Of a stretch of DNA of 54,904 nt, positions 26,252-45,902 are shown piece by piece (position 1 is the first letter of the stretch; the number at the start of each line of letters is the position of its first letter). Position numbers and translations under genes: made by a program. Source of the DNA: a virus. The DNA lies in the IMG/VR virus record IMGVR_UViG_3300037847_004215, positions 805 to 55,708 of that record, one strand, 5' to 3'. The notes beneath the pieces are model-generated. The model worked only from the letters and a program-made list of their open reading frames with translations, had not been told where the DNA came from and searched no databases.

Positions 26252-26596
26252 CTAGTATCTAAATCCCTTAAATCCAAGCATATGAAACATTGTTTCTAAC
26301 AAATGCGCTAATTTCACTCGCTTAGTAGTCATAATGATAAAAGCATATTTTACGTTTTTGCCTAGTTCTTTATGCCTAGTCACTCTTTTTTTAAAGTTCA
26401 TAGTCATACCAACATACCTTTCTTTAGGAAGATAGTATAGTATATACTTTCCTTCGTGTTCTTTTTTTCCGTGGACATCGACTTGCTTCTTGCACTTTTT
26501 GCAATATCTCTGTACTCCGCTAGGTCTACTTCTGTCTTTGTGAAACTCAGACAGCGGCTTCTTTTTTTTGCACTTACTGCAATTCTGAGTACTCAT
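26252..26596 (-). CDS. GIY-YIG nuclease-like protein with N-terminal zinc ribbon
   Basis: 114 residues. Residues 6-35 hold two CxxC pairs (C6/C9 and C32/C35) in the order CSKCKKKKPLSEFHKDRS and YCKKCKK, as in treble-clef domains that accompany phage endonucleases. Residues 50-75 read GKYILYYLPKERYVGMTMNF then KKRVTRHK, a GIY-YIG pattern (Y-I-L-Y ... Y-V-G, then R and H), with E101 as a possible metal ligand. It could be a free-standing homing endonuclease or a nuclease used in host DNA degradation. It is the last gene of the leftward region and overlaps the gene upstream. Confidence 0.7.
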   Translation of the reverse strand: MSTQNCSKCKKKKPLSEFHKDRSRPSGVQRYCKKCKKQVDVHGKKEHEGKYILYYLPKERYVGMTMNFKKRVTRHKELGKNVKYAFIIMTTKRVKLAHLLETMFHMLGFKGFRY

Positions 26597-34214: not shown

Positions 34215-34640
34215 CTAATCCAAGACTTTTCGAAAATAAATTTTATCTGGGTTGTGTCCATAGAACCAAGTCATAACTCCACACAACCACATGGTTTCAT
34301 AACGACCTTTTTTGTTGATGAAATCATACCAAGCTCCATCGCCTTCGGTATCATCAAATGCTTTCTCAAGCTTTCTAGCACCATCAAAGTATTCTAGTGA
34401 AGTTTGTAAAACGACATCGTTCCTGTCGGGTGTTCGCATAGATTCTAGAAACCTATCAGCACCCTGAACCATTTCCAAATGATATTTGGCGGCTTTCCAT
34501 TCAGGTAAGTCTACATACCATCGACCTTTGTGGTCTTTGTAAAATCTAAACTCTCTGTCTTTACTTCCTTTGTTTTTAGGAAGAAGCATCATCATGATGG
34601 ATTTTAGTTTTTTGTACAATCTGTTTATTATTTTTTTCAT
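34215..34640 (-). CDS. DUF6717-like protein
   Basis: 141 residues from MKKIINRLYK at 34640, an ATG in the shared ACTATG context; a longer frame with two earlier ATGs runs into the palindrome upstream. The segments REFRFYKDHKGRWYVDLPEW, MVQGADRFLESM and MWLCGVMTWFYGHNPDKIYF match a family I know as DUF6717, common in Bacteroidota and their phages. Function unknown. Confidence 0.65.
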   Translation of the reverse strand: MKKIINRLYKKLKSIMMMLLPKNKGSKDREFRFYKDHKGRWYVDLPEWKAAKYHLEMVQGADRFLESMRTPDRNDVVLQTSLEYFDGARKLEKAFDDTEGDGAWYDFINKKGRYETMWLCGVMTWFYGHNPDKIYFRKVLD

Positions 34641-34659
34641 AGTATTATATATTATATTA

Positions 34660-34693
34660 TATATCATTATCCCTTTAGGGGGATAATGATATA
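34660..34693. repeat. Perfect 14-bp inverted repeat around CCCTTTAGGG
   Basis: TATATCATTATCCC pairs with GGGATAATGATATA across a 6-base TTTAGG loop. It lies 20 bases before the start of the DUF6717-like gene on the leftward strand and shares the CCC-TTTA-GGG core with hairpins in the 42-kb control region. It could be an operator, a processed RNA hairpin or a terminator for the genes upstream. Confidence 0.7.
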
Positions 34694-34735
34694 ATACATT
34701 ATTATCTAATAAGGGGGATGTTTAAGTATTTACAC

Positions 34736-34888
34736 TTACTCAATAGGTTTTCTAAACCAGTAACATCTTGATTTCCAAGACACCACAAGAATCCTATTAT
34801 TGTATTTTTTTACATAAAGCTTGTGCCCCAGCAAACTTTTCTCGTTCATAGATAATAGAAAGCCGTGTAACTTTTTTGGTATTAACAT
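34736..34888 (-). CDS. 50-residue basic protein
   Basis: MLIPKKLHGFLLSMNEKSLL, then GHKLYVKKYNNRILVVSWKS and RCYWFRKPIE. It begins one base after the stop of the DUF932 gene. Lys/Arg and aromatic rich. No family recognised. Confidence 0.5.
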   Translation of the reverse strand: MLIPKKLHGFLLSMNEKSLLGHKLYVKKYNNRILVVSWKSRCYWFRKPIE

Positions 34889-34889
34889 A

Positions 34890-35774
34890 CTAAAGATTCA
34901 AGAACTCCTCAAGAGTGTTAGCGTCAACCATCTTGAGCACCTCATTGTACCCAATGTTAGATAGCTTGTAGCCACCCCCTACCATAAGGTAAGTATTTTT
35001 AGCATCCTCATCCTTCGGAGCTGCAACGTGGTTAGTGTAACGAGTTACAGCATTGAACAAAGACCATAAGGTTTTACCATGTGTATTTACCTCAGTAACA
35101 AGTGAGTCAGCAAAGCTCTTCACTTGATTTGATTTACGAGTTGATACACTATCCTCTGGCGCATCAAGACTTACATTGAACATAGCACGAATAGTGCGGT
35201 CAACAGCCTCATCAGTCAACGCGGTTTCATCAAAAGCTTTGTAAGTCTGAATCAAGTTGAACTCCTCACGAATAGCATTCTGAAGCTGTGAGATACTCAC
35301 AGATATACTTGACTCTGCATTGCGAGTGTGGCGGTGCTTAGACTTCATCTCCTTGAGAGTACGATAGAAACCATTGCTACAAACGATTACCTTGTTGGCT
35401 ACGCCAAAGGCAATAGAGGTAGAGCCATCGTGAGAGTTCATGGCTGTGATAAATCTCTTGATATTAGAAGCACCTACACGCTCTTGCTCAAGCTCTGCTT
35501 GTAGATATATCTTTTTACCACCTTGTAGTTCACCACCTTTGGTGATAGGGATTCCTGCTACATCAGTAAGTTCTACCATACGCTCAACAAGTTGAGAGTT
35601 CTGGTATGGTGTGTAACGCTCGCCCGCAGTACCAAGCCAAGCATTATTGTCATTACGGAAGATACCGTAGCTCTCAGTAGGTAGACCATCCTCAGATACG
35701 AGAGGTTTCTTTTCTACTGACCAATTAAGTCCTGTTGATTGTAGGACATCGAAAGTTTTTTGAAAGTTATCCAT
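34890..35774 (-). CDS. DUF932 protein (phage/plasmid-like)
   Basis: 294 residues from MDNFQKTFDVLQ at 35774; a longer frame from 35843 starts before the promoter box. The pattern GERYTPYQNSQLVERMVELT, then FGVANKVIVCSNGF and TKGGELQGGKKIYLQAEL, matches DUF932, found in many phages and plasmids. Its role is unknown; a DNA-related early function has been assumed. The first gene behind the best-matched leftward promoter in the window. Confidence 0.8.
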   Translation of the reverse strand: MDNFQKTFDVLQSTGLNWSVEKKPLVSEDGLPTESYGIFRNDNNAWLGTAGERYTPYQNSQLVERMVELTDVAGIPITKGGELQGGKKIYLQAELEQERVGASNIKRFITAMNSHDGSTSIAFGVANKVIVCSNGFYRTLKEMKSKHRHTRNAESSISVSISQLQNAIREEFNLIQTYKAFDETALTDEAVDRTIRAMFNVSLDAPEDSVSTRKSNQVKSFADSLVTEVNTHGKTLWSLFNAVTRYTNHVAAPKDEDAKNTYLMVGGGYKLSNIGYNEVLKMVDANTLEEFLNL

Positions 35775-35807
35775 AAGATTGAATTTAATTTGGCATTGTT
35801 GCCGTTG

Positions 35808-35839
35808 CAAATATATAATTGTCGAATTGCCGATGTCAA
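35808..35839 (-). promoter_or_regulatory. Leftward promoter: TTGACA, 18 bases, TATATTTG
   Basis: Read leftward, TTGACA (35839-35834) is followed after 18 bases by TATATTTG (35815-35808), matching both boxes of the Bacteroidota promoter, with an A-tract further upstream. The start codon of the DUF932 gene is 34 bases beyond. A partner promoter with identical TTGACA-18 spacing is at 39168-39198. Confidence 0.8.
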
Positions 35840-35904
35840 GCAATCAGCCATATTTTTTTTCGTAATACAACTAACTGCTTGATTATCAGCGAGAAAAATT
35901 TTAT

Positions 35905-36138
35905 CTAGATTGAATCGAAGTAGCGTTGGAACATACCACCAGAATCCTCGTCAAGCTCGGATGCACATAGCATAATCTCCATAGGCACACCATTGTCGTG
36001 CTGTATTCCTTCCTCCACGAACAATACCTTTTCAGGGTCAGAGTCTCCGTGTGAGCGGAAGCTTACTTCAATCTCTTCTAGATTGTTTCCTTGCATATGT
36101 AAGTCTACAAGAAACATCATTAAGTCATTAGCTGTCAT
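35905..36138 (-). CDS. 77-residue acidic protein, function unknown
   Basis: Chosen start MTANDLMMFLVDLHMQGNNL at 36138, one base after the stop of the gene upstream; an earlier in-frame ATG would overlap that gene by 47 bases. Ends SGGMFQRYFDSI. Strongly acidic, as are many phage inhibitors, but function unknown. Confidence 0.55.
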   Translation of the reverse strand: MTANDLMMFLVDLHMQGNNLEEIEVSFRSHGDSDPEKVLFVEEGIQHDNGVPMEIMLCASELDEDSGGMFQRYFDSI

Positions 36139-36139
36139 A

Positions 36140-36382
36140 TTAATCGCATTTAAGTTCTCCTCTTGAGTAGCCCATTCCGTATCCATGCTTGTAGGTGTTT
36201 CTACCTACAGGCGGAACAGGACACACAGGTGTAAGTCCTACCTTGAAACAGCTTTCCAAGGCATCTTGATATCCATCTTCCCATCCCTCACAAAAGTCTG
36301 GGTTTACATTAGCTTGGTTTATAAAACCATAGCTAATAGCTCCTAGTATTAGCACTACTAGTACTCTGTAAATTCTTTTCAT
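36140..36382 (-). CDS. Small secreted or membrane-anchored Cys protein
   Basis: 80 residues. Residues 5-21 (YRVLVVLILGAISYGFI) are a hydrophobic N-terminal segment, followed by NPDFCEGWEDGYQDALESCF and CPVPPVGRNTYKHGYGMGYS, with four cysteines. The 'GWEDGY ... GY-x-x-GY' pattern recurs in small Bacteroidota and phage proteins. Likely exported or anchored in the inner membrane. ACTATG start context. Confidence 0.55.
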   Translation of the reverse strand: MKRIYRVLVVLILGAISYGFINQANVNPDFCEGWEDGYQDALESCFKVGLTPVCPVPPVGRNTYKHGYGMGYSRGELKCD

Positions 36383-36384
36383 AG

Positions 36385-36603
36385 TTAAATCCTTCTTGGA
36401 ATCTCATTTGAGATTTTTGTGCTAACATCTTGTTCGCTAACATCTGAAAGAGCCATTGTGATTTTGTCCCCTAGTACTTTTTTCATTTCCCAGTAAACAG
36501 AACTTAAGTCATTCATGTCATATCCAGACATAATAGCTTTACCCGTTTCTTTCCATCGGATGTCAGTGTTGCCCTCTCTGAGGGAGTGTTTTACTTTGCT
36601 CAT
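36385..36603 (-). CDS. 72-residue protein, function unknown
   Basis: MSKVKHSLREGNTDIRWKET, then AIMSGYDMNDLSSVYWEMKK. Helical. The start is in an ACTATG context and the stop is 2 bases before the next start. No family recognised. Confidence 0.55.
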   Translation of the reverse strand: MSKVKHSLREGNTDIRWKETGKAIMSGYDMNDLSSVYWEMKKVLGDKITMALSDVSEQDVSTKISNEIPRRI

Positions 36604-36614
36604 AGTTAATTAAA

Positions 36615-36983
36615 TTAAAACCATTTCTCGTTTGAAAATAGTGCCTCCTCATCATTGAGAGGATACCCCACCGATTTCTTTACAATCTCTAAGTCATTCC
36701 AAGTATAGTCTTTGTATTTTTCTGGATACTCTTCCTTGATGAAGACTTGGTATCTATCTCTAAGAACAGCCCAAGTATTTTCTAAGACTAAAAGCTTCTT
36801 GTAGGATTCGTAATACTTACCTCCCCAAACCATAGGTTCTTCTTTTACTTGTTCTAAGGTTTCTACCATCAACGCTTTCATCTGAGACAACAAGCCACAG
36901 CTCAAATGAGAACACTCATAGGTGTCTATGAGATTTCTTCTTACTTCTTCTGTCTGTACAGATTTCCCCTTAAATCTTTTCAT
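36615..36983 (-). CDS. 122-residue protein, function unknown
   Basis: MKRFKGKSVQTEEVRRNLID, then helical with ESYKKLLVLENTWAVLRDRY and a final YPLNDEEALFSNEKWF. ACTATG context. No family recognised. Confidence 0.6.
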   Translation of the reverse strand: MKRFKGKSVQTEEVRRNLIDTYECSHLSCGLLSQMKALMVETLEQVKEEPMVWGGKYYESYKKLLVLENTWAVLRDRYQVFIKEEYPEKYKDYTWNDLEIVKKSVGYPLNDEEALFSNEKWF

Positions 36984-36988
36984 AGTAT

Positions 36989-37123
36989 TTATTCTTCTTT
37001 TGATTTGTCTTGAGGTATGTCTTTGACCTCGTTGGTATCGGGGTCAATTACCACTAGTTTCTTTCTTGATTGCTGAGGCTTTACAGTGAAAAGCCCCAGC
37101 GGTGTTACGTTTGATTTACTCAT
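36989..37123 (-). CDS. 44-residue protein, function unknown
   Basis: Chosen start MSKSNVTPLGLFTVKPQQSR at 37123, one base after the stop of the gene upstream; the longer frame would overlap that gene by nearly 100 bases. Lys/Gln/Pro-rich with VVIDPDTNEVKD, a possible strand-turn-strand. No family recognised. Confidence 0.5.
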   Translation of the reverse strand: MSKSNVTPLGLFTVKPQQSRKKLVVIDPDTNEVKDIPQDKSKEE

Positions 37124-37124
37124 A

Positions 37125-37379
37125 TTAATTCCATTTTTTGTTAAACTTTCTAGAATAGAACTGGTACTCCTCGTACGCCTCATCAGATACTTGTTCTTGT
37201 TCTTTGTCTGATGTATCACGCAGGTAAGAAGCTAGGTCGTCTAGCCAAGTAGACTGCTTGTGTTCTAGAGTATACCTGTCTTTGTAGTAACAAAGCATAG
37301 TAATTAGTTCTTGCTTGTCGCAGTTGCCCCAATTATCTAGAGCTTTATACAAGTCTTCGGTGTGTTTGAATTTGTACAT
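37125..37379 (-). CDS. 84-residue protein, function unknown
   Basis: Chosen start MYKFKHTEDLYKALDNWGNC at 37379, two bases after the preceding stop. Acidic C-terminal helix (SDKEQEQVSDEAYEEYQFYS). No family recognised. Confidence 0.55.
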   Translation of the reverse strand: MYKFKHTEDLYKALDNWGNCDKQELITMLCYYKDRYTLEHKQSTWLDDLASYLRDTSDKEQEQVSDEAYEEYQFYSRKFNKKWN

Positions 37380-37381
37380 AA

Positions 37382-37663
37382 TTAATTGTTTTTGTTTGTT
37401 ATTAAATTGTTTTCCCACTCTTCCAGAAGTTCTTCTGGAACAGCATAGTTCTCGTAGTTCGCTCCACTCATTACTATTTCTTCGCAATCTTCGTAGAAGG
37501 AGTACTCATTGTAGTACAAGTTGTCGGGGTCGATATCCGTGTTGGGATACCAAGTTCCGTTTATGTTTTTGTAATCTTTTGGTGTTCTTCGATACAGCCA
37601 ATAGATATCGTAGCCGTCCCTCGTATGAAGGACATCAAAGAAAAACTTTTCTGGAATACTCAT
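37382..37663 (-). CDS. 93-residue acidic protein, function unknown
   Basis: MSIPEKFFFDVLHTRDGYDI, then NTDIDPDNLYYNEYSFYEDC, rich in Tyr, Asp and Glu. The start overlaps the upstream stop (ATGA) and is in the ACTATG context. Dense surface acidity resembles small DNA-mimic or inhibitor proteins, but no match is claimed. Confidence 0.55.
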   Translation of the reverse strand: MSIPEKFFFDVLHTRDGYDIYWLYRRTPKDYKNINGTWYPNTDIDPDNLYYNEYSFYEDCEEIVMSGANYENYAVPEELLEEWENNLITNKNN

Positions 37664-38043
37664 AGTCTATTATTTTTTATCCATTCAAAACTTTGTTCAA
37701 TTACTTGATTGATTCTTTCCTCAGTCCAATGAGCCTTAGCTTCATCGGGGTCAGAGTCAACGCTCACTCTGTGAAAGGTGTCCTCTCGCCATTGTCTACT
37801 AGGTAGATGGTATACACCATCTTTGTCCCAATAAGCAAAGTCTAAGACATCGCCACCTTCTGCAAGTGGAAGGTCATAGTATGTTAGATAGTTATCTAAC
37901 TCCTCTATGTCTACTCGCTCTATGTTGAGTAGCCAATCGGATGCAGACTCTTTGCTAGAAGGATGGATAGTACCATCCTCATTGACATAGAGAGTGCCGT
38001 GGCTACTCTCAAATTCCATAGGAATTAATTCTTTTGTTTTCAT
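37660..38043 (-). CDS. 127-residue acidic protein, function unknown
   Basis: The frame opens at two ATGs (MTM); the second (38043, MKTKELIPMEF) is chosen because the same spacing to the TAAATTTTC leader is seen at genes with no first ATG. Residues 45-70 read IEELDNYLTYYDLPLAEGGD. Acidic. Function unknown. Confidence 0.6.
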   Translation of the reverse strand: MKTKELIPMEFESSHGTLYVNEDGTIHPSSKESASDWLLNIERVDIEELDNYLTYYDLPLAEGGDVLDFAYWDKDGVYHLPSRQWREDTFHRVSVDSDPDEAKAHWTEERINQVIEQSFEWIKNNRL

Positions 38044-38055
38044 AGTCATTGAAAT

Positions 38056-38307
38056 TTAAACTCTTACTACATCATAGGTATCTGTTTCGGAAGAGTCTCC
38101 GCAAACAGAAACCAAGTCGCAAAGCGGACTATCCAAGTCCCATATCGCATCAAGAATAGCATCTTCTTTTTTCTCTGATGCATTCCGCCCAATGATAACT
38201 TCAATCTCGTTGAAGCGAGTGTTTAGTAAAACCTTAGCACTCTGATTAGTTTTCTTTACAGCCTCAACTACCTTGTTAAGGTCTGCTTGATTTAGCTTGT
38301 AGCTCAT
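38056..38307 (-). CDS. 83-residue protein, function unknown
   Basis: Start MSYKLNQADLNKVVEAVKKT at 38307 (second ATG, same reasoning as the gene downstream). The middle NTRFNEIEVIIGRNASEKKE suggests an alpha-beta fold. Function unknown. Confidence 0.55.
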   Translation of the reverse strand: MSYKLNQADLNKVVEAVKKTNQSAKVLLNTRFNEIEVIIGRNASEKKEDAILDAIWDLDSPLCDLVSVCGDSSETDTYDVVRV

Positions 38308-38320
38308 AGTCATTGAAAAT

Positions 38321-38497
38321 TTAATTGTTATTATATTCTTTCCACAACTCAGCTCGGTACGAAACCTCTGATGAGTCTACCATAATCTCATAGCTATTCA
38401 CTTCAATGAATAAGCTACCATCATCTATGGTTGCAGGGATATCATTATCTCTGAACCAAGCTAGAGCATCTAGCATATCCTTAGTTACTTCTAACAT
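38321..38497 (-). CDS. 58-residue acidic protein, function unknown
   Basis: Start MLEVTKDMLDALAWFRDNDI at 38497 (second ATG). Alternating acidic and hydrophobic residues (GSLFIEVNSYEIMVDSSEVS) suggest beta-strands. Function unknown. Confidence 0.5.
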   Translation of the reverse strand: MLEVTKDMLDALAWFRDNDIPATIDDGSLFIEVNSYEIMVDSSEVSYRAELWKEYNNN

Positions 38498-38510
38498 AGT
38501 CATTGAAAAT

Positions 38511-38615
38511 TTAAGAGGGGGTCAAAGCCCCCTCGGTTATACATTCGTGTTCCATAATATCTCCGTTGTCATCTACGATGTCGTAGCAACAAAGATTACA
38601 AGTCGTGTACTTCAT
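38511..38615 (-). CDS. 34-residue Cys microprotein
   Basis: MKYTTCNLCCYDIVDDNGDI, ending TEGALTPS. CNLCC plus a further Cys (HEC) suggests a small metal site. The ATG overlaps the upstream TAA by one base, and the last codons form a hairpin. Too short for ordinary gene finding but coupled to a clear gene. Confidence 0.45.
   Translation of the reverse strand: MKYTTCNLCCYDIVDDNGDIMEHECITEGALTPS
38515..38534 (-). terminator. Hairpin in front of the shared leader
   Basis: GAGGGGG and CCCCCTC pair perfectly around a 6-base loop; leftward it runs straight into TTAAATTTTCAATGACTATG. A similar hairpin stands at 41331-41354. Possible attenuator or RNA-processing point; the T-run is weak. Confidence 0.55.
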
Positions 38616-39115
38616 TACTTGTTGATGTTTAGCTTAGCACTTACCATTACCTCAAGGCTATCAGCAAACTGCTGAATAGCTGTGTCAATCATAGACTGAA
38701 CAGCATCAGTACTGATGTTACCCGAACCTTGATTGTCAACCTCATCAGAGATGAGTTGGTGCATACCTTCTCGGTCAGCAATCTTCTCAGACACAGTCTG
38801 AGCAAGGGTATCCATATCAAGGGCATCAGTCATCTCCTCTTGGAGGGAGCTGTAGTCTATGTGCTCTGAAAAATCTTGATAGTCTATGCAACGGGCAAGG
38901 TCATCAGTATCTATGTTGGAAGCCACATCGCTATTGTCGATATAACCTACAAGGTCATACATATCAATAGAACTTGCTATCTCACTATAATCCATAGTGT
39001 CTTTAGCGATTTCTGTGAAATCTGTTTTGTCATAGACATCTAGTCTTTTTTGTAGTGTTACTACTTCCGCTTGGATTTTGTCAAGACCCAAAAACTTGAT
39101 GATTGCATTTTTCAT
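38615..39115 (-). CDS. Helical protein with tandem Asp-rich repeats
   Basis: 166 residues from MKNAIIKFLGLDKIQAEVVT at 39115, after the promoter at 39168-39198. Residues about 45-100 contain five tandem copies of a short unit of the type D-Y-S-E-I-A-S-S-I-D / D-N-S-D-V-A-S-N-I-D / D-D-L-A-R-C-I-D / D-F-S-E-H-I-D. Such 9- to 11-residue acidic repeats could be a solenoid or a DNA-mimic surface. Function unknown. Confidence 0.6.
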   Translation of the reverse strand: MKNAIIKFLGLDKIQAEVVTLQKRLDVYDKTDFTEIAKDTMDYSEIASSIDMYDLVGYIDNSDVASNIDTDDLARCIDYQDFSEHIDYSSLQEEMTDALDMDTLAQTVSEKIADREGMHQLISDEVDNQGSGNISTDAVQSMIDTAIQQFADSLEVMVSAKLNINK

Positions 39116-39167
39116 TTGATTGAAATTTGATTGATTAAAGTTGGTGGCTTTCTGCCTCCTGCGTATA

Positions 39168-39198
39168 CAAGATAGCATCAGCAGATTGCCGTTGTCAA
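39168..39198 (-). promoter_or_regulatory. Leftward promoter: TTGACA, 18 bases, TATCTTGT
   Basis: Read leftward, TTGACA (39198-39193) is followed after 18 bases by TATCTTGT (6 of 8 matches to TAnnTTTG). The -33 flank (A-tract, TTGACAACGGCAATC) resembles that at 35834-35839 (TTGACATCGGCAATT). The start codon lies 53 bases downstream of the -7 box. Confidence 0.6.
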
Positions 39199-39220
39199 GT
39201 ATTTTTTTTCTATTAATTTT

Positions 39221-39526
39221 TTACTCCGTAGGAGTAGTACCCCCAATAGATTTCTTTACCCACACATCATGCTCGTAGCACGAGTTAATGAGGTCGATAA
39301 GTTCACTAGGTGGTAGGTCGGATGTTAGCCTCGAGTTGTTGGTCATCGTTACTTTGCTACCCGTAGCCACGTAGTCTATGTTATTTGCATTGTCATAGAT
39401 ACTTGTCTTGGTAGGTACAATAGACACTATCTTTTCGGGGTTAATCCACGATTGAATTGAATACAATTCAGATGTGGGTTGGTCGTTCTTGAAGCGTTGC
39501 TTCTTTAAACTTGTTATTAGTATCAT
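39221..39526 (-). CDS. 101-residue protein, function unknown
   Basis: MILITSLKKQRFKNDQPTSE, then NPEKIVSIVPTKTSIYDNAN. Mixed strands; ends SIGGTTPTE. Its start is in the ACTATG context and overlaps the upstream stop (ATGA). No family recognised. Confidence 0.55.
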   Translation of the reverse strand: MILITSLKKQRFKNDQPTSELYSIQSWINPEKIVSIVPTKTSIYDNANNIDYVATGSKVTMTNNSRLTSDLPPSELIDLINSCYEHDVWVKKSIGGTTPTE

Positions 39527-39654
39527 AGTTTTATTTCTAAAATTTTACAGATTTCTTCGAAATACTCTTGACCACTTTGGCTCATACGTTGGTGGTCAAA
39601 ACTTAATCCGAACATTAAAGTTTTTACTCTTACTAATTTTTCTTGTGTTGTCAT
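39523..39654 (-). CDS. 43-residue protein, function unknown
   Basis: Start MTTQEKLVRVKTLMFGLSFD at 39654 in the ACTATG context; the frame extends further upstream but across the leader. Helical. Coupled to the downstream gene by an ATGA overlap. Confidence 0.5.
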   Translation of the reverse strand: MTTQEKLVRVKTLMFGLSFDHQRMSQSGQEYFEEICKILEIKL

Positions 39655-39658
39655 AGTC

Positions 39659-39826
39659 TTAGTATTTAAAATTTGCTTGGTATCTATGCAATACATCTCG
39701 TATTGCATCTTTAAAATACTGCTCAACATCTACGCTCTCTCTGATAAGACCTAGCTCAACGAACTCATCGACTATGTCGATATAGATGTCAGCGATTAGT
39801 GTTTCGAAGTTTGTATTGTCTTCCAT
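39659..39826 (-). CDS. 55-residue acidic protein, function unknown
   Basis: MEDNTNFETLIADIYIDIVD, then EFVELGLIRESVDVEQYFKD and a basic end. Start in the ACTATG context, four bases after which the next gene begins. No family recognised. Confidence 0.5.
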   Translation of the reverse strand: MEDNTNFETLIADIYIDIVDEFVELGLIRESVDVEQYFKDAIRDVLHRYQANFKY

Positions 39827-39833
39827 AGTCTTG

Positions 39834-40073
39834 TTATTTATTAGAATTATTTCGTTGATTCATTAATTCATTCATTCCCTCGTCATAGTACTGAGCACAT
39901 TCTTTAAATGCCTCATCTTTTAAGTTCATAACGAGCCACTCAATAGCATCATAAGAGTCAGTATACCGCTCTATTATCTGCTCAGCAGTCCATACTGCTA
40001 CATCTATTTCTCTTTTAGTTGCACTCATACTAGAAAGGTTGTCGCTTAACTTGGTGATTTTAAAAAGTCCCAT
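39834..40073 (-). CDS. 79-residue helical protein, function unknown
   Basis: MGLFKITKLSDNLSSMSATK; the first ATG lies nine bases after the preceding stop, which supports it over the internal MSATKREID. Acidic helices follow (TDSYDAIEWLVMNLKDEAFK). No family recognised. Confidence 0.5.
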   Translation of the reverse strand: MGLFKITKLSDNLSSMSATKREIDVAVWTAEQIIERYTDSYDAIEWLVMNLKDEAFKECAQYYDEGMNELMNQRNNSNK

Positions 40074-40081
40074 AATCTTGA

Positions 40082-40768
40082 TTATTCTGATTCTACTAAT
40101 TCTTTTATTTTGTCCTCAGCGATTATATCGCCATTCTCATCATACACATCTACATACTCCAATTCGTAGATTAACTCATCGGAGTCCATATATTCTCTGA
40201 GGTATTCGTGTATCATTCCGTCAAGATTATCTATCTTGAATAGTCTTGCATTAGTGTATCCACCACGAACATCACAGCCTCCGTGTATTTGAAGTATCAA
40301 ATAAATTTCATCATCTATTTTTATCCAACTGCCTTGCAGTGTTTGAGATAGGTCGCTATCTCCGTTGTAGGTGTTGAAAGTACTCCAATCCTCTCCGTAT
40401 ATGTCATAGTATATCTCATGTCCATAGTCATGACATAGTGAGTCTAGATATTCTTGAGCCTCTTTGGAAACGCCATAGAAATTGCCTTCCCAATTGTCCG
40501 CATCTCTGTTGATGTCGTTGAACTTTTCGCATAGTTCATCTATGTCAAGCTCTGACAGATAGTGAAACACACTAACTATCCTCTCGAATTGTTTGTACCT
40601 ACTATCGTAGGTAATTTTTTGTTCGGGTTCATTGTAAAAGTCCTCGATAGTCTTTGACTGATTGCGTTGCCAATGTCTGCCGTAGGCACTACCGCTGTCT
40701 AGCATATGCGTTCCAGTGTTCTCTGTGAGCATAGCATAGATTTCTCTTTGAGTTTTTGTAAAATTCAT
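40082..40768 (-). CDS. 228-residue acidic protein, function unknown
   Basis: Start MNFTKTQREIYAMLTENTGT at 40768, in the shared leader; a longer frame would cross it. Very acidic (for example NINRDADNWEGNFYGVSKEA and EYVDVYDENGDIIAEDKIKE), with a Tyr-rich beta region (CDVRGGYTNARLFKIDNLDG). Largest gene of the early array. A DNA-mimic or protein-binding inhibitor is possible, but I see no known motif. Confidence 0.6.
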   Translation of the reverse strand: MNFTKTQREIYAMLTENTGTHMLDSGSAYGRHWQRNQSKTIEDFYNEPEQKITYDSRYKQFERIVSVFHYLSELDIDELCEKFNDINRDADNWEGNFYGVSKEAQEYLDSLCHDYGHEIYYDIYGEDWSTFNTYNGDSDLSQTLQGSWIKIDDEIYLILQIHGGCDVRGGYTNARLFKIDNLDGMIHEYLREYMDSDELIYELEYVDVYDENGDIIAEDKIKELVESE

Positions 40769-40781
40769 AGTTTTTGAAAAT

Positions 40782-40880
40782 TTATTTGCAGTTATTACAT
40801 TCATCTCTTTCTAATTCTTCATTCCAAGTTACACTTGGGGTGTGGTCTCCACAGCATCCGCAGATATAAAGATTTTCCAT
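40782..40880 (-). CDS. 32-residue zinc-ribbon-like microprotein
   Basis: MENLYICGCCGDHTPSVTWN, then EELERDECNNCK. It has CGCC and CNNC, two CxxC-type pairs about 20 residues apart, the layout of a zinc ribbon. It starts behind the shared TAAATTTTC...ACTATG leader, which argues that it is translated. Confidence 0.6.
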   Translation of the reverse strand: MENLYICGCCGDHTPSVTWNEELERDECNNCK

Positions 40881-41002
40881 AGTCTTTGAAAATTTAGTTA
40901 TTAAAAAAAAGAAAGAGATATACAAGCCCGTTCAATCTTCTCACTTAATGGGTACATTGAGCCGAACTTGATATCCCTTTCCGTAGGAATTACTTAGCCT
41001 TA

Positions 41003-41311
41003 TTATTCTTTTTCTTGATACCCGAAGGTTTCAAGTAGTTTTCTTACTTGTTCTCTGTCAAGACTATCCGCCTCAAACTTGTTTGAGTGAATCATAACGA
41101 TTTGACAGAACTCGATGATTACATCATCAGCGCAGTTGAACGGATAAAGTTGAGAATTTGAGTTGTAAAAACTAAGAACATACTTTGCGAATTCGTAGAA
41201 TTCTACGCAGGTGTGCTTGTTTTCTTCTCTTTGAACTTTGCAGACTTTAGACAATAAGTCTAAGTCTAAATTGTTTTCTTGAATTAGATTTACAATTCCG
41301 TTATATTTCAT
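41003..41311 (-). CDS. 102-residue helical protein, function unknown
   Basis: MKYNGIVNLIQENNLDLDLL, then KVCKVQREENKHTCVEFYEF. Helical, mixed charge; ends LLETFGYQEKE. Leader TTAAATTTTCAATTTAACTATG. The 40881-41002 gap holds leader sequence and an 18-codon frame I do not credit. Confidence 0.55.
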   Translation of the reverse strand: MKYNGIVNLIQENNLDLDLLSKVCKVQREENKHTCVEFYEFAKYVLSFYNSNSQLYPFNCADDVIIEFCQIVMIHSNKFEADSLDREQVRKLLETFGYQEKE

Positions 41312-41329
41312 AGTTAAATTGAAAATTTA
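41309..41329 (-). repeat. One copy of the shared AU-rich translation-initiation leader
   Basis: Read leftward: TAAATTTTC, 5-9 bases, then ATG, usually ACTATG. Other copies precede the starts at 38043 (one A shorter), 38307, 38497, 40768, 40880 and 41854. ACTATG alone also precedes 34640, 36382, 36603, 36983, 37663, 39526, 39654 and 39826. The 9-mer sits exactly where a Shine-Dalgarno sequence would, suggesting a host-adapted AU-rich ribosome-recruitment site. Confidence 0.7.
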
Positions 41330-41330
41330 A

Positions 41331-41354
41331 GGAGAGGGCTTTGAAACCCTCTCC
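41331..41354 (-). terminator. Hairpin in front of the shared leader (second copy)
   Basis: GGAGAGGG pairs perfectly with CCCTCTCC over an 8-base loop; leftward it is followed by TTAAATTTTCAATTTAACTATG. Same arrangement as at 38515-38534. Possible attenuator or processing hairpin. Confidence 0.6.
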
Positions 41355-41386
41355 GAGGGTTATTAATACTTTGTCTTGATTAAACC

Positions 41387-41854
41387 TTACTTTGTAAGGT
41401 CGATGATGGTTAAAGCCACATTCAGAGGCAGAGCCTCTAAGATGGATTGCTTTTCCTTATCACTTGCTAAAGCAAGGGATACAAGAGCCTCTCTAACAGC
41501 TACGCTGTTTGCCGAAGCTTTAGCGAAGCTAAAATTAGACTTTGTCTTTGTAGCCTTCGGGGTAGAAACAGCCTTCTCTACCTTCTTCGAAGGTTTCTTA
41601 GAAGTACTACGTACTTTTTCCGCTTTCTTGCCTTTGGCAACGGTAGTTGACTGAAGAATGGTAACCTTGTTACCATCGGCTTGGATTAGCATTTCACACT
41701 TATCTCCTTTGGAGATTGGTTGCCCTGAAAGGGCACAAGAGCCGTAGGCTTTCTTCGCTACAAAAGTGAAACTTTTTACCGCCTCGATAACTTCGTTATT
41801 GTAGACTCTGCTGATTGCACTAGCTTTGCTAGTAAGAACTTTTGAAGTTGACAT
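41387..41854 (-). CDS. First gene of the leftward arm; basic protein with CxxC-like and linker regions
   Basis: 155 residues starting MSTSKVLTSKASAISRVYNN. Residues about 37-55 (AYGSCALSGQPISKGDKCEM) resemble a small zinc or treble-clef-like turn with two Cys. A Lys/Ser-rich linker (KGKKAEKVRSTSKKPSKKVE) is followed by an Ala-rich helical C terminus (VAVREALVSLALASDKEKQS). Being first behind the control region, it is likely the earliest product; a host-takeover or DNA-binding regulator is plausible but not shown. Confidence 0.65.
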   Translation of the reverse strand: MSTSKVLTSKASAISRVYNNEVIEAVKSFTFVAKKAYGSCALSGQPISKGDKCEMLIQADGNKVTILQSTTVAKGKKAEKVRSTSKKPSKKVEKAVSTPKATKTKSNFSFAKASANSVAVREALVSLALASDKEKQSILEALPLNVALTIIDLTK

Positions 41855-41905
41855 AAATTGAAAATTTATTTGTTATGAGCTCAGCACTTTGCCGAGCCGA
41901 CACCT

Positions 41906-41926
41906 ATAGTATACTATGGTTGTCAA
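41906..41926 (-). promoter_or_regulatory. Leftward TTGACA box with ATAGTATACTAT palindrome
   Basis: TTGACA (41926-41921 leftward) shares its AAxACTTGACAxC flank with the promoters at 35839 and 39198. Instead of a TAnnTTTG box 18 bases on, there is the perfect 12-bp palindrome ATAGTATACTAT at 41906-41917, as expected for an operator. It fires towards the gene ending at 41387. Confidence 0.55.
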
Positions 41927-41931
41927 GTTTT

Positions 41932-41955
41932 TACCCCCTTTGGGGGTAGTTTTTT
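41932..41955 (+). terminator. Hairpin followed by T-run
   Basis: TACCCCC pairs with GGGGGTA over a TTT loop, followed by GTTTTTT. Rightward terminator, or a leftward structure just upstream of the TTGACA box. Confidence 0.6.
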
Positions 41956-42022
41956 CTACCCTTTAGGGTAGGTTACAAATTTCAATTAGCCCCTATAATG
42001 TTTTTTTAACCCTTTAGGGTTA
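41956..42022. repeat. Two CCCTTTAGGG palindromes
   Basis: CTACCCTTTAGGGTAG at 41956-41971 and TAACCCTTTAGGGTTA at 42007-42022 are perfect 7-bp-arm palindromes, 36 bases apart, with the same core as the 14-bp repeat at 34660-34693. An operator or processing site family is likely. Confidence 0.65.
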
Positions 42023-45323: not shown

Positions 45324-45902
45324 ATGAAACCTGTTAGAGATTTTATCGTAAGGATACCCAAAAAGTTTAAAGACGAGGTTTCATTCAACGGAACGAAATT
45401 GAAACTTGTGAACAAGTTCAATGAATTTGAACATAGGGTAAACTATGCAGAAATTTTAGGCTGTCCTAAAAGTTGCCCAGTAGATAGCTGTGACGGGGCT
45501 GTTCTGTACTTTCACCACCACGTTGTAATGGAACAAAGATATGATATTGGTGAAGACTTGTATATGGTTACTTATGACCCAGACGCTGGATATGGAAACC
45601 ACGCTATCGCAATCGAAGACGAAGCTGGTAATATTACTATGCTTGGGGATTGGTGTTTTGTTGCACCCCCACCTCCTGCGGAAGAAGAAACAACTGATTC
45701 TGGCATCGTTCTTAGCATCAAAGAAAAACCAGAACTGGAAGGAGAACTATTGCATATGCCCGAAGGCGCAGAGTGGATTGGAGCGAAGTCTGGTGATATG
45801 GTGGGCTACCGAAAAAATTCAGAATATGAAATGGAACTTCTGGACGGAAGCAAGGTATACAGAATGAGACTATCAGAAATAGTGTATGCCAAAGAAGCGT
45901 AA
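45324..45902 (+). CDS. GroES-like co-chaperonin (gp31 type)
   Basis: 192 residues. The start VRDFIVRIPKKFKDEVSFNG and the C-terminal barrel (GAKSGDMVGYRKNSEYEMEL, then KVYRMRLSEIVY) fit GroES-like proteins; a middle segment (VLYFHHHVVMEQRYDIGEDL, then HAIAIEDEAGNITMLGDWCF) looks like the mobile-loop and turret region seen in phage relatives. Four early cysteines (CPKSCPVDSC) are unusual. It would replace host GroES to fold the large capsid protein. Lies just upstream of the terminase. Confidence 0.65.
   Translation: MKPVRDFIVRIPKKFKDEVSFNGTKLKLVNKFNEFEHRVNYAEILGCPKSCPVDSCDGAVLYFHHHVVMEQRYDIGEDLYMVTYDPDAGYGNHAIAIEDEAGNITMLGDWCFVAPPPPAEEETTDSGIVLSIKEKPELEGELLHMPEGAEWIGAKSGDMVGYRKNSEYEMELLDGSKVYRMRLSEIVYAKEA

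Follow-up and report, generated by a model that had tools for sequence, protein, structure and literature searches.

What makes a row of small, largely unrelated phage genes begin with nearly the same bases ahead of the start codon? The question is raised by a window of 54,904 nucleotides from virus record IMGVR_UViG_3300037847_004215 (positions 805 to 55,708; 54.9 kb of a 57.3 kb record), in which the structural genes lie on the + strand. The - strand carries the replication genes at 26-34 kb and, at 34-42 kb, an array of small genes; between these two blocks come genes for an ExoVIII-like nuclease and an Erf-like annealing protein. The label early for the array is deduced from gene position. 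The terminase has relatives in Flavobacterium elemo phages, Cellulophaga phages, and others (identity up to 48%), a kinship that makes a host within the Bacteroidota very probable, and promoters of the TAHHTTTG type are present in the window. Two elements recur before the array genes, the triplet ACT immediately 5' of ATG and an AU-rich box, TAAATTTTC, a few bases further upstream. To judge from sequence comparison, they probably form a lineage-specific leader for initiation without a Shine-Dalgarno (SD) sequence, made uniform by cassette exchange.

An earlier note on this DNA had listed fourteen starts between 34.6 and 41.3 kb as ACT-ATG, and ACT does precede ATG in 14/14. Three sets of starts were compared, comprising 22 from the array (34.2-41.9 kb; curated by hand with the finding already known), 33 late, and 16 replication starts. 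ACT precedes 14/22, 1/33, and 0/16 of them, respectively (Fisher p = 9e-7 versus late, 2e-8 versus late plus replication), and the box 0/33 late and 0/16 replication starts, in agreement with the statement that these genes lack the signal. The chance level of one in 64 assumed at the time is too low; ACT precedes 9/201 (4.5%) of the non-start ATGs on the same strand, a fairer local rate, from which the array departs with p = 3e-14. Because the array starts were curated in this way, conservative recounts were made. Dropping the five ambiguous starts (34640, 38043, 38307, 38497, and 40768) leaves ACT at 9/22 (p = 6e-4 versus late; p = 4e-10 versus 3/340 host genes, that is, script-called starts from 26 Flavobacteriales loci around tuf, sampled in place of the phage's actual host). 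At three further starts the ACT letters are common to the upstream gene, namely 37663 and 39526, in CTA-TGA/ATGA overlaps, and 36382 (TA[A-CT]); dropping these as well leaves 6/22 (p = 2e-6 versus host, 3e-4 versus local same-strand ATGs). The observation of ACT-ATG together with the box is confirmed.

The related contigs used below are L094 and L201 (both 3300022921_000133), L095 and L199 (both 3300024475_000242), L013 (3300006916_000553), L098 (3300021389_000018; L092 is the same contig), and L100 (3300024581_000857), together with L204 (MW202828) and L205 (elemoA). They settle the ambiguity of frames beginning MTM, as the earlier note had expected, in favor of the second, ACT-proximal ATG, because in L098 the orthologue of gene 38497, and in L094 that of gene 38043, is without an ATG at the upstream MTM position. 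The box is absent before eight of the 14 genes with ACT:

34215-34640 (-), gene with ACT-ATG start; the corresponding starts of L094 and L095 read the same
36140-36382 (-), small gene with TAACT-ATG start, position -3 being the stop A of the upstream gene
36385-36603 (-), small gene with ACT-ATG start
36615-36983 (-), small gene with ACT-ATG start
37382-37663 (-), small gene with ACT-ATG start within an ATGA overlap; the upstream gene ends in NNRL and stop
39221-39526 (-), small gene with ACT-ATG start within an ATGA overlap; ACT kept in L094
39523-39654 (-), small gene with ACT-ATG start
39659-39826 (-), small gene with ACT-ATG start

The genes at 36140-36382 and 35905-36186 (-) overlap by an apparent 47 bases, provided that the start at 36186 is right.

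The box itself, TAAATTT(T)C, occupies the SD position in seven leaders, as first noticed, with 5, 7, or 9 nt from its C to the ATG. Exact TAAATTTTC has six copies in the window, which fall within 38,315-41,868 and are confined to the - strand, and a single TAAATTTC, one T shorter, lies at 38,051-38,058; the full leader form is TAAATTTTCAAnnACT-ATG. The copies, and one weaker version, are:

41860-41868 (-), TAAATTTTC box in the leader of gene 41387-41854, first of unit P1; CAATTT-ATG, without ACT
41321-41329 (-), TAAATTTTC box of gene 41003-41311, AATTTAACT-ATG; immediately 3' of a hairpin
40888-40896 (-), TAAATTTTC box of gene 40782-40880, AAAGACT-ATG
40776-40784 (-), TAAATTTTC box of gene 40082-40768; its TAA is the stop of gene 40782-40880
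38505-38513 (-), TAAATTTTC box of gene 38321-38497, AATGACT-ATG; its TAA is the stop of gene 38511-38615
38315-38323 (-), TAAATTTTC box of gene 38056-38307; its TAA is the stop of gene 38321-38497
38051-38058 (-), TAAATTTC box of gene 37660-38043; its TAA is the stop of gene 38056-38307
39116-39129 (-), weaker box CAAATTTCAATCAA-ATG of gene 38615-39115, first of unit P2

The box of gene 41387-41854 is conserved in L095 and L013 and altered in L094, with a diverged spacer upstream; the orthologue of gene 37660-38043 in L098 displays the leader TAAATTTTCAATGACT-ATG; and the weaker box corresponds to TAAATTTCAAACAA in L095 and TTAATTTTCAAACAAC in L094. The proteins of 40782-40880 and 38511-38615 (-), of 32 and 34 amino acids, contain paired cysteines and look zinc-ribbon-like.

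Whether relatives carry the box, the check proposed in the earlier note, has a divided answer: the closest ones do, before unrelated genes included, but the more distant ones do not. A search of viral contigs returned eight stretches, three of them from relatives. The box occurs several times per contig in 3300022921_000133 and 3300024475_000242, as a single copy in 3300006916_000553, 3300021389_000018, and 3300024581_000857, and before no ATG in L096, L097, L099, and L101-L103, and in the close relatives the box leader stands before non-homologous genes. Other lineages repeat other words. The early genes of L096-L102 have mostly ATT or GTT before ATG, with T at -1 in 65% of early versus 34% of late genes (p = 2e-5, a generous test given that some of the late genes are orthologues of each other), and repeated leader words of a different kind occur in elemoA and, clearly, in MW202828. 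The words seen are AACGACACAAAAATCAACACTATC-ATG, twice, before early genes of MW202828 and CTAAAATTTATACA(C/T)T-ATG before those of elemoA. Within the window, leaders of non-homologous early genes share runs of at least 8 identical bases in 10.9% of pairs, compared with 1.6% after shuffling; for late leaders the values are 2.0% and 1.2%.

The setting for such a leader is known. Bacteroidota do without SD sequences, and initiation in Flavobacterium johnsoniae relies on A at -3, -6, and -12/-13 (PMC6847099); non-SD initiation has been described for the whole phylum (PMC3155529), with ribosomal protein S1 as the conjectured reader of these leaders (PMC6847099, PMC3155529). The window conforms to this: SD-like words precede 1/22 early, 1/16 replication, and 2/33 late starts, and the array adenines (A-3 in 18/22, A-6 in 15/22, A-12 in 16/22, A-13 in 18/22) coincide with the determinants measured in F. 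johnsoniae. The sampled Flavobacteriales genes display A at about 0.6 over -13 to -11 (A-13 0.56, A-12 0.58) and A-3 at 0.53, with the core AAATTT in 40/340 leaders versus 13 after shuffling, a roughly threefold enrichment. The phage leader thus shares with Bacteroidota non-SD regions the missing SD, the adenines at -3, -6, -12, and -13, and the AU-rich character for which S1 was proposed there; what is a loose preference in those regions is here a near-fixed TAAATTTTCAAnnACT with C-2 and U-1, confined to one array of one phage lineage. By these comparisons it appears to be the host pattern in unusually fixed form, not host style as such.

The proposed mechanism follows from this arrangement. 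An mRNA that is AU-rich from about -17 to -1 would present an A-run near -13 as the presumed seat of S1, followed by A-6, A-3, and U-1, and S1 binding of the leader is plausible. In the extended codon-anticodon model, a U at -1 could add a fourth base pair with the anticodon loop of the initiator tRNA. Every cistron would thereby have a favorable start of its own, suited to host ribosomes that take no notice of SD sequences. The stop codon, the leader, and the start make up a single compact junction (TAA-ATTTTCAATGACT-ATG), so the leader would also move along with its gene during cassette exchange and become uniform across the array. What the sequences display directly is where the leader lies, its enrichment and confinement to the array, its separation from promoters, its conservation below about -17 in two pairs of genomes, its use before non-homologous genes, the stop codons it shares, and the turnover of neighbors; improved initiation, contacts with S1 or tRNA, and spread by recombination are deduced. 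The earlier suggestion of an AU-rich ribosome-recruitment site therefore survives in a lineage-specific form, given the ribosome-binding-site position, the location downstream of separate promoters, and the fit to Bacteroidota determinants; the alternative offered there, a phage translation regulator that switches the array on together, is not supported.

Several points weigh on the other side. The late genes must be translated as well and do without ACT and box, hence the signal is not required. Predicted openness is 0.57 at early and 0.56 at late starts, so that folding gave no difference and lower structure at early starts was discarded as an explanation. The orthologous leaders of genes 35774, 39115, and 39526 are poorly conserved. 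The host sample, which stands in for the phage's actual host, comes from Flavobacteriales DNA around tuf, where strongly expressed genes abound. Neutral copying, too, can produce leaders that are alike within a genome and differ from one genome to the next.

The non-SD leader, if correctly read, has some reach. Start choice in Bacteroidota has so far been answered mainly by whole-genome statistics, and a phage array in which one leader recurs ahead of many unrelated genes amounts to a natural experiment, with a concrete sequence for testing; this array suggests U-1 and C-2 as additional determinants, indicates that start-site leaders can turn uniform inside one phage gene array, and helps the annotation of small genes in these phages.

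Of the other explanations, the one that fares best, and is still unlikely, takes the shared leader for a mere recombination joint, a short homology at gene ends that serves gene swaps and has no role in translation. Swapping as such is also part of the favored reading, and much at the junctions speaks for it. In 4/7 copies (genes 38497, 38307, 38043, and 40768) the box opens with the TAA that ends the upstream gene, the junction taking the form given above or close variants of it. Gene 38043 terminates in AATAGACTATGA in three genomes, including L098 and L094, and different genes follow. The leader of the gene compared between L199 and L201 is identical at 17/17 positions from -17 to -1, with 4/13 and 10/30 matches further upstream, the similarity starting at the box; for gene 38043, window versus L098, the values are 15/17, then 2/13 and 7/30. 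Two copies abut hairpins:

38515-38534 (-), hairpin GAGGGGGCTTTGACCCCCTC, abutting the box and coding the C-terminus EGALTPS of gene 38511-38615; similar in L094 and L098
41331-41354 (-), hairpin GGAGAGGGTTTCAAAGCCCTCTCC, adjoining the box of gene 41003-41311

Ends similar to EGALTPS-stop, namely EGADTPS and EGADNPS, each followed by stop, occur in L094 and L098 before different genes, and hairpin plus box of gene 41003-41311 recur at L094 4094; in the viral contigs searched for hairpin plus box, only unrelated chance matches appeared besides L092, and no hairpin is evident in the sequence at the boxes of 38307, 38043, and 40768. With junctions fixed, neighbors changing, and leader identity beginning at -17, genes appear to be exchanged at these points, presumably by recombination, for which the Erf and ExoVIII-like genes are at hand. 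A joint without translational function nevertheless leaves three observations aside: ACT follows upstream sequences of many different kinds and hence is not a single copied block; the leader bases match independently measured initiation determinants; and the first genes of units have the box without an upstream gene. The nearest parallel is with the PeSL cassettes of T4-like phages, proposed as gene-swapping joints (Arbiol 2010 and Comeau 2014, as described in PMC4503421). Both systems place short repeats at the junctions between small early genes whose order shifts; stem-loops occur in some PeSLs, and hairpins adjoin two of the window copies. PeSLs contain an early promoter (PMC4503421), in place of which the window junction has a probable leader for translation and, in many copies, a stop codon; no early promoter lies inside the repeated box cassette, the promoters being outside the box.

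Somewhat more doubtful is the box as operator of a phage-encoded, RegA-like translational regulator that would move the array up or down together, the switch-on regulator of the earlier note being one form of this. T4 RegA recognizes AU-rich sites that cover the start codon in about 30 early mRNAs (PMC3014915), and the box matches these in position and character: a common AU-rich element, unstructured, with an A-run 5' of AUG, at the start of many early phage mRNAs (PMC3014915); leaders specific to each lineage are also what a co-evolving regulator predicts. The differences are that no RegA homologue was found among the proteins scanned, that the window sequence is far more uniform than RegA sites, and that there is no evidence of repression here. 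The Pfam scan for RegA, S21, and other translation-factor homologues returned none in the proteins scanned, several short open reading frames lying outside the scan; an IF3_C match in the protein of 26252-26596 was set aside as weak, below cut-off, and overlapping a GIY-YIG-like match. The box is missing from the eight ACT genes listed above, the gene 38497 protein occurs with and without it at 98% identity (L098), and the leaders of other phages in the group differ, all of which tell against a common switch. A candidate for the protein is the product of the first array gene, 41387-41854 (-), which carries the box itself and is found only in the close clade, on box-carrying contigs. This co-occurrence tracks ancestry, and the 155-amino-acid product has no family match; it is predicted, at low confidence (pLDDT 61), to comprise a beta domain, a Lys-rich linker, and a helical end. 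The fold matches of the model, some to PARP zinc fingers, were insignificant and were not used. That an early phage protein, perhaps this one, binds the box on all the mRNAs that have it, its own included, is a long shot; if true, the protein-box pairing would provide coordinated translational control in an SD-less host, with each lineage having its own protein and leader pair.

Very improbable is a reading of TAAATTTTC as a degenerate -7 promoter element, with genes transcribed singly into leaderless mRNAs. The box does resemble TAHHTTTG, a terminator-like hairpin precedes some copies, and -10 elements adjacent to open reading frames are known in Deinococcus-Thermus (PMC12340547), but F. johnsoniae transcripts mostly have leaders of more than 10 nt (PMC6847099), and the near-invariant final G of TAHHTTTG is missing in all seven copies. 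The promoters, moreover, lie elsewhere. Alignment of the regions 5' of genes 41854, 39115, and 35774 with relatives revealed in each a conserved promoter-like element (before 35774, TTGACA with TATATTTGC), which a brief hairpin or spacer separates from the AU-rich leader downstream:

41905-41926 (-), promoter P1, TTGACA-7-TATACTATA, conserved in four genomes; upstream of the box
39164-39198 (-), promoter P2, TTGACA-18-TATCTTGTATA, conserved in three genomes
35808-35839 (-), promoter P3, TTGACA-18-TATATTTG, fitting the Bacteroidota -7 element TAHHTTTG

With promoters sitting separately upstream in three transcription units, the box belongs to the transcribed leader, and its spacing of 5-9 nt to the ATG is that expected of a translation signal; a role as promoter was rejected on these grounds, and one as the U-tract of a terminator because several copies have no hairpin. 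Least credible is plain host style, in which the host would begin its own genes likewise: Flavobacteriales genes do often have the A-rich stretch at -13 to -11, A-3, and the AAATTT core ahead of them, but ACT and AAATTTTC precede only 3/340 and 0/340 of those sampled, not the equal rate that the earlier note had named as grounds for abandoning its claim, and the late genes of the same phage lack the signal.

Just upstream of P1, at 41927-41980 (-), lie two conserved palindromes of the CCCCTAAAGGGG type, with compensating changes in L013, possibly an operator or terminators; a similar hairpin, CCCCCTAAAGGG, precedes gene 34640. Outside the array, the protein encoded before the terminase region at 45324-45902 (+) displays a weak Cpn10 match, below cut-off, and elemoA has an annotated GroES at the corresponding place.

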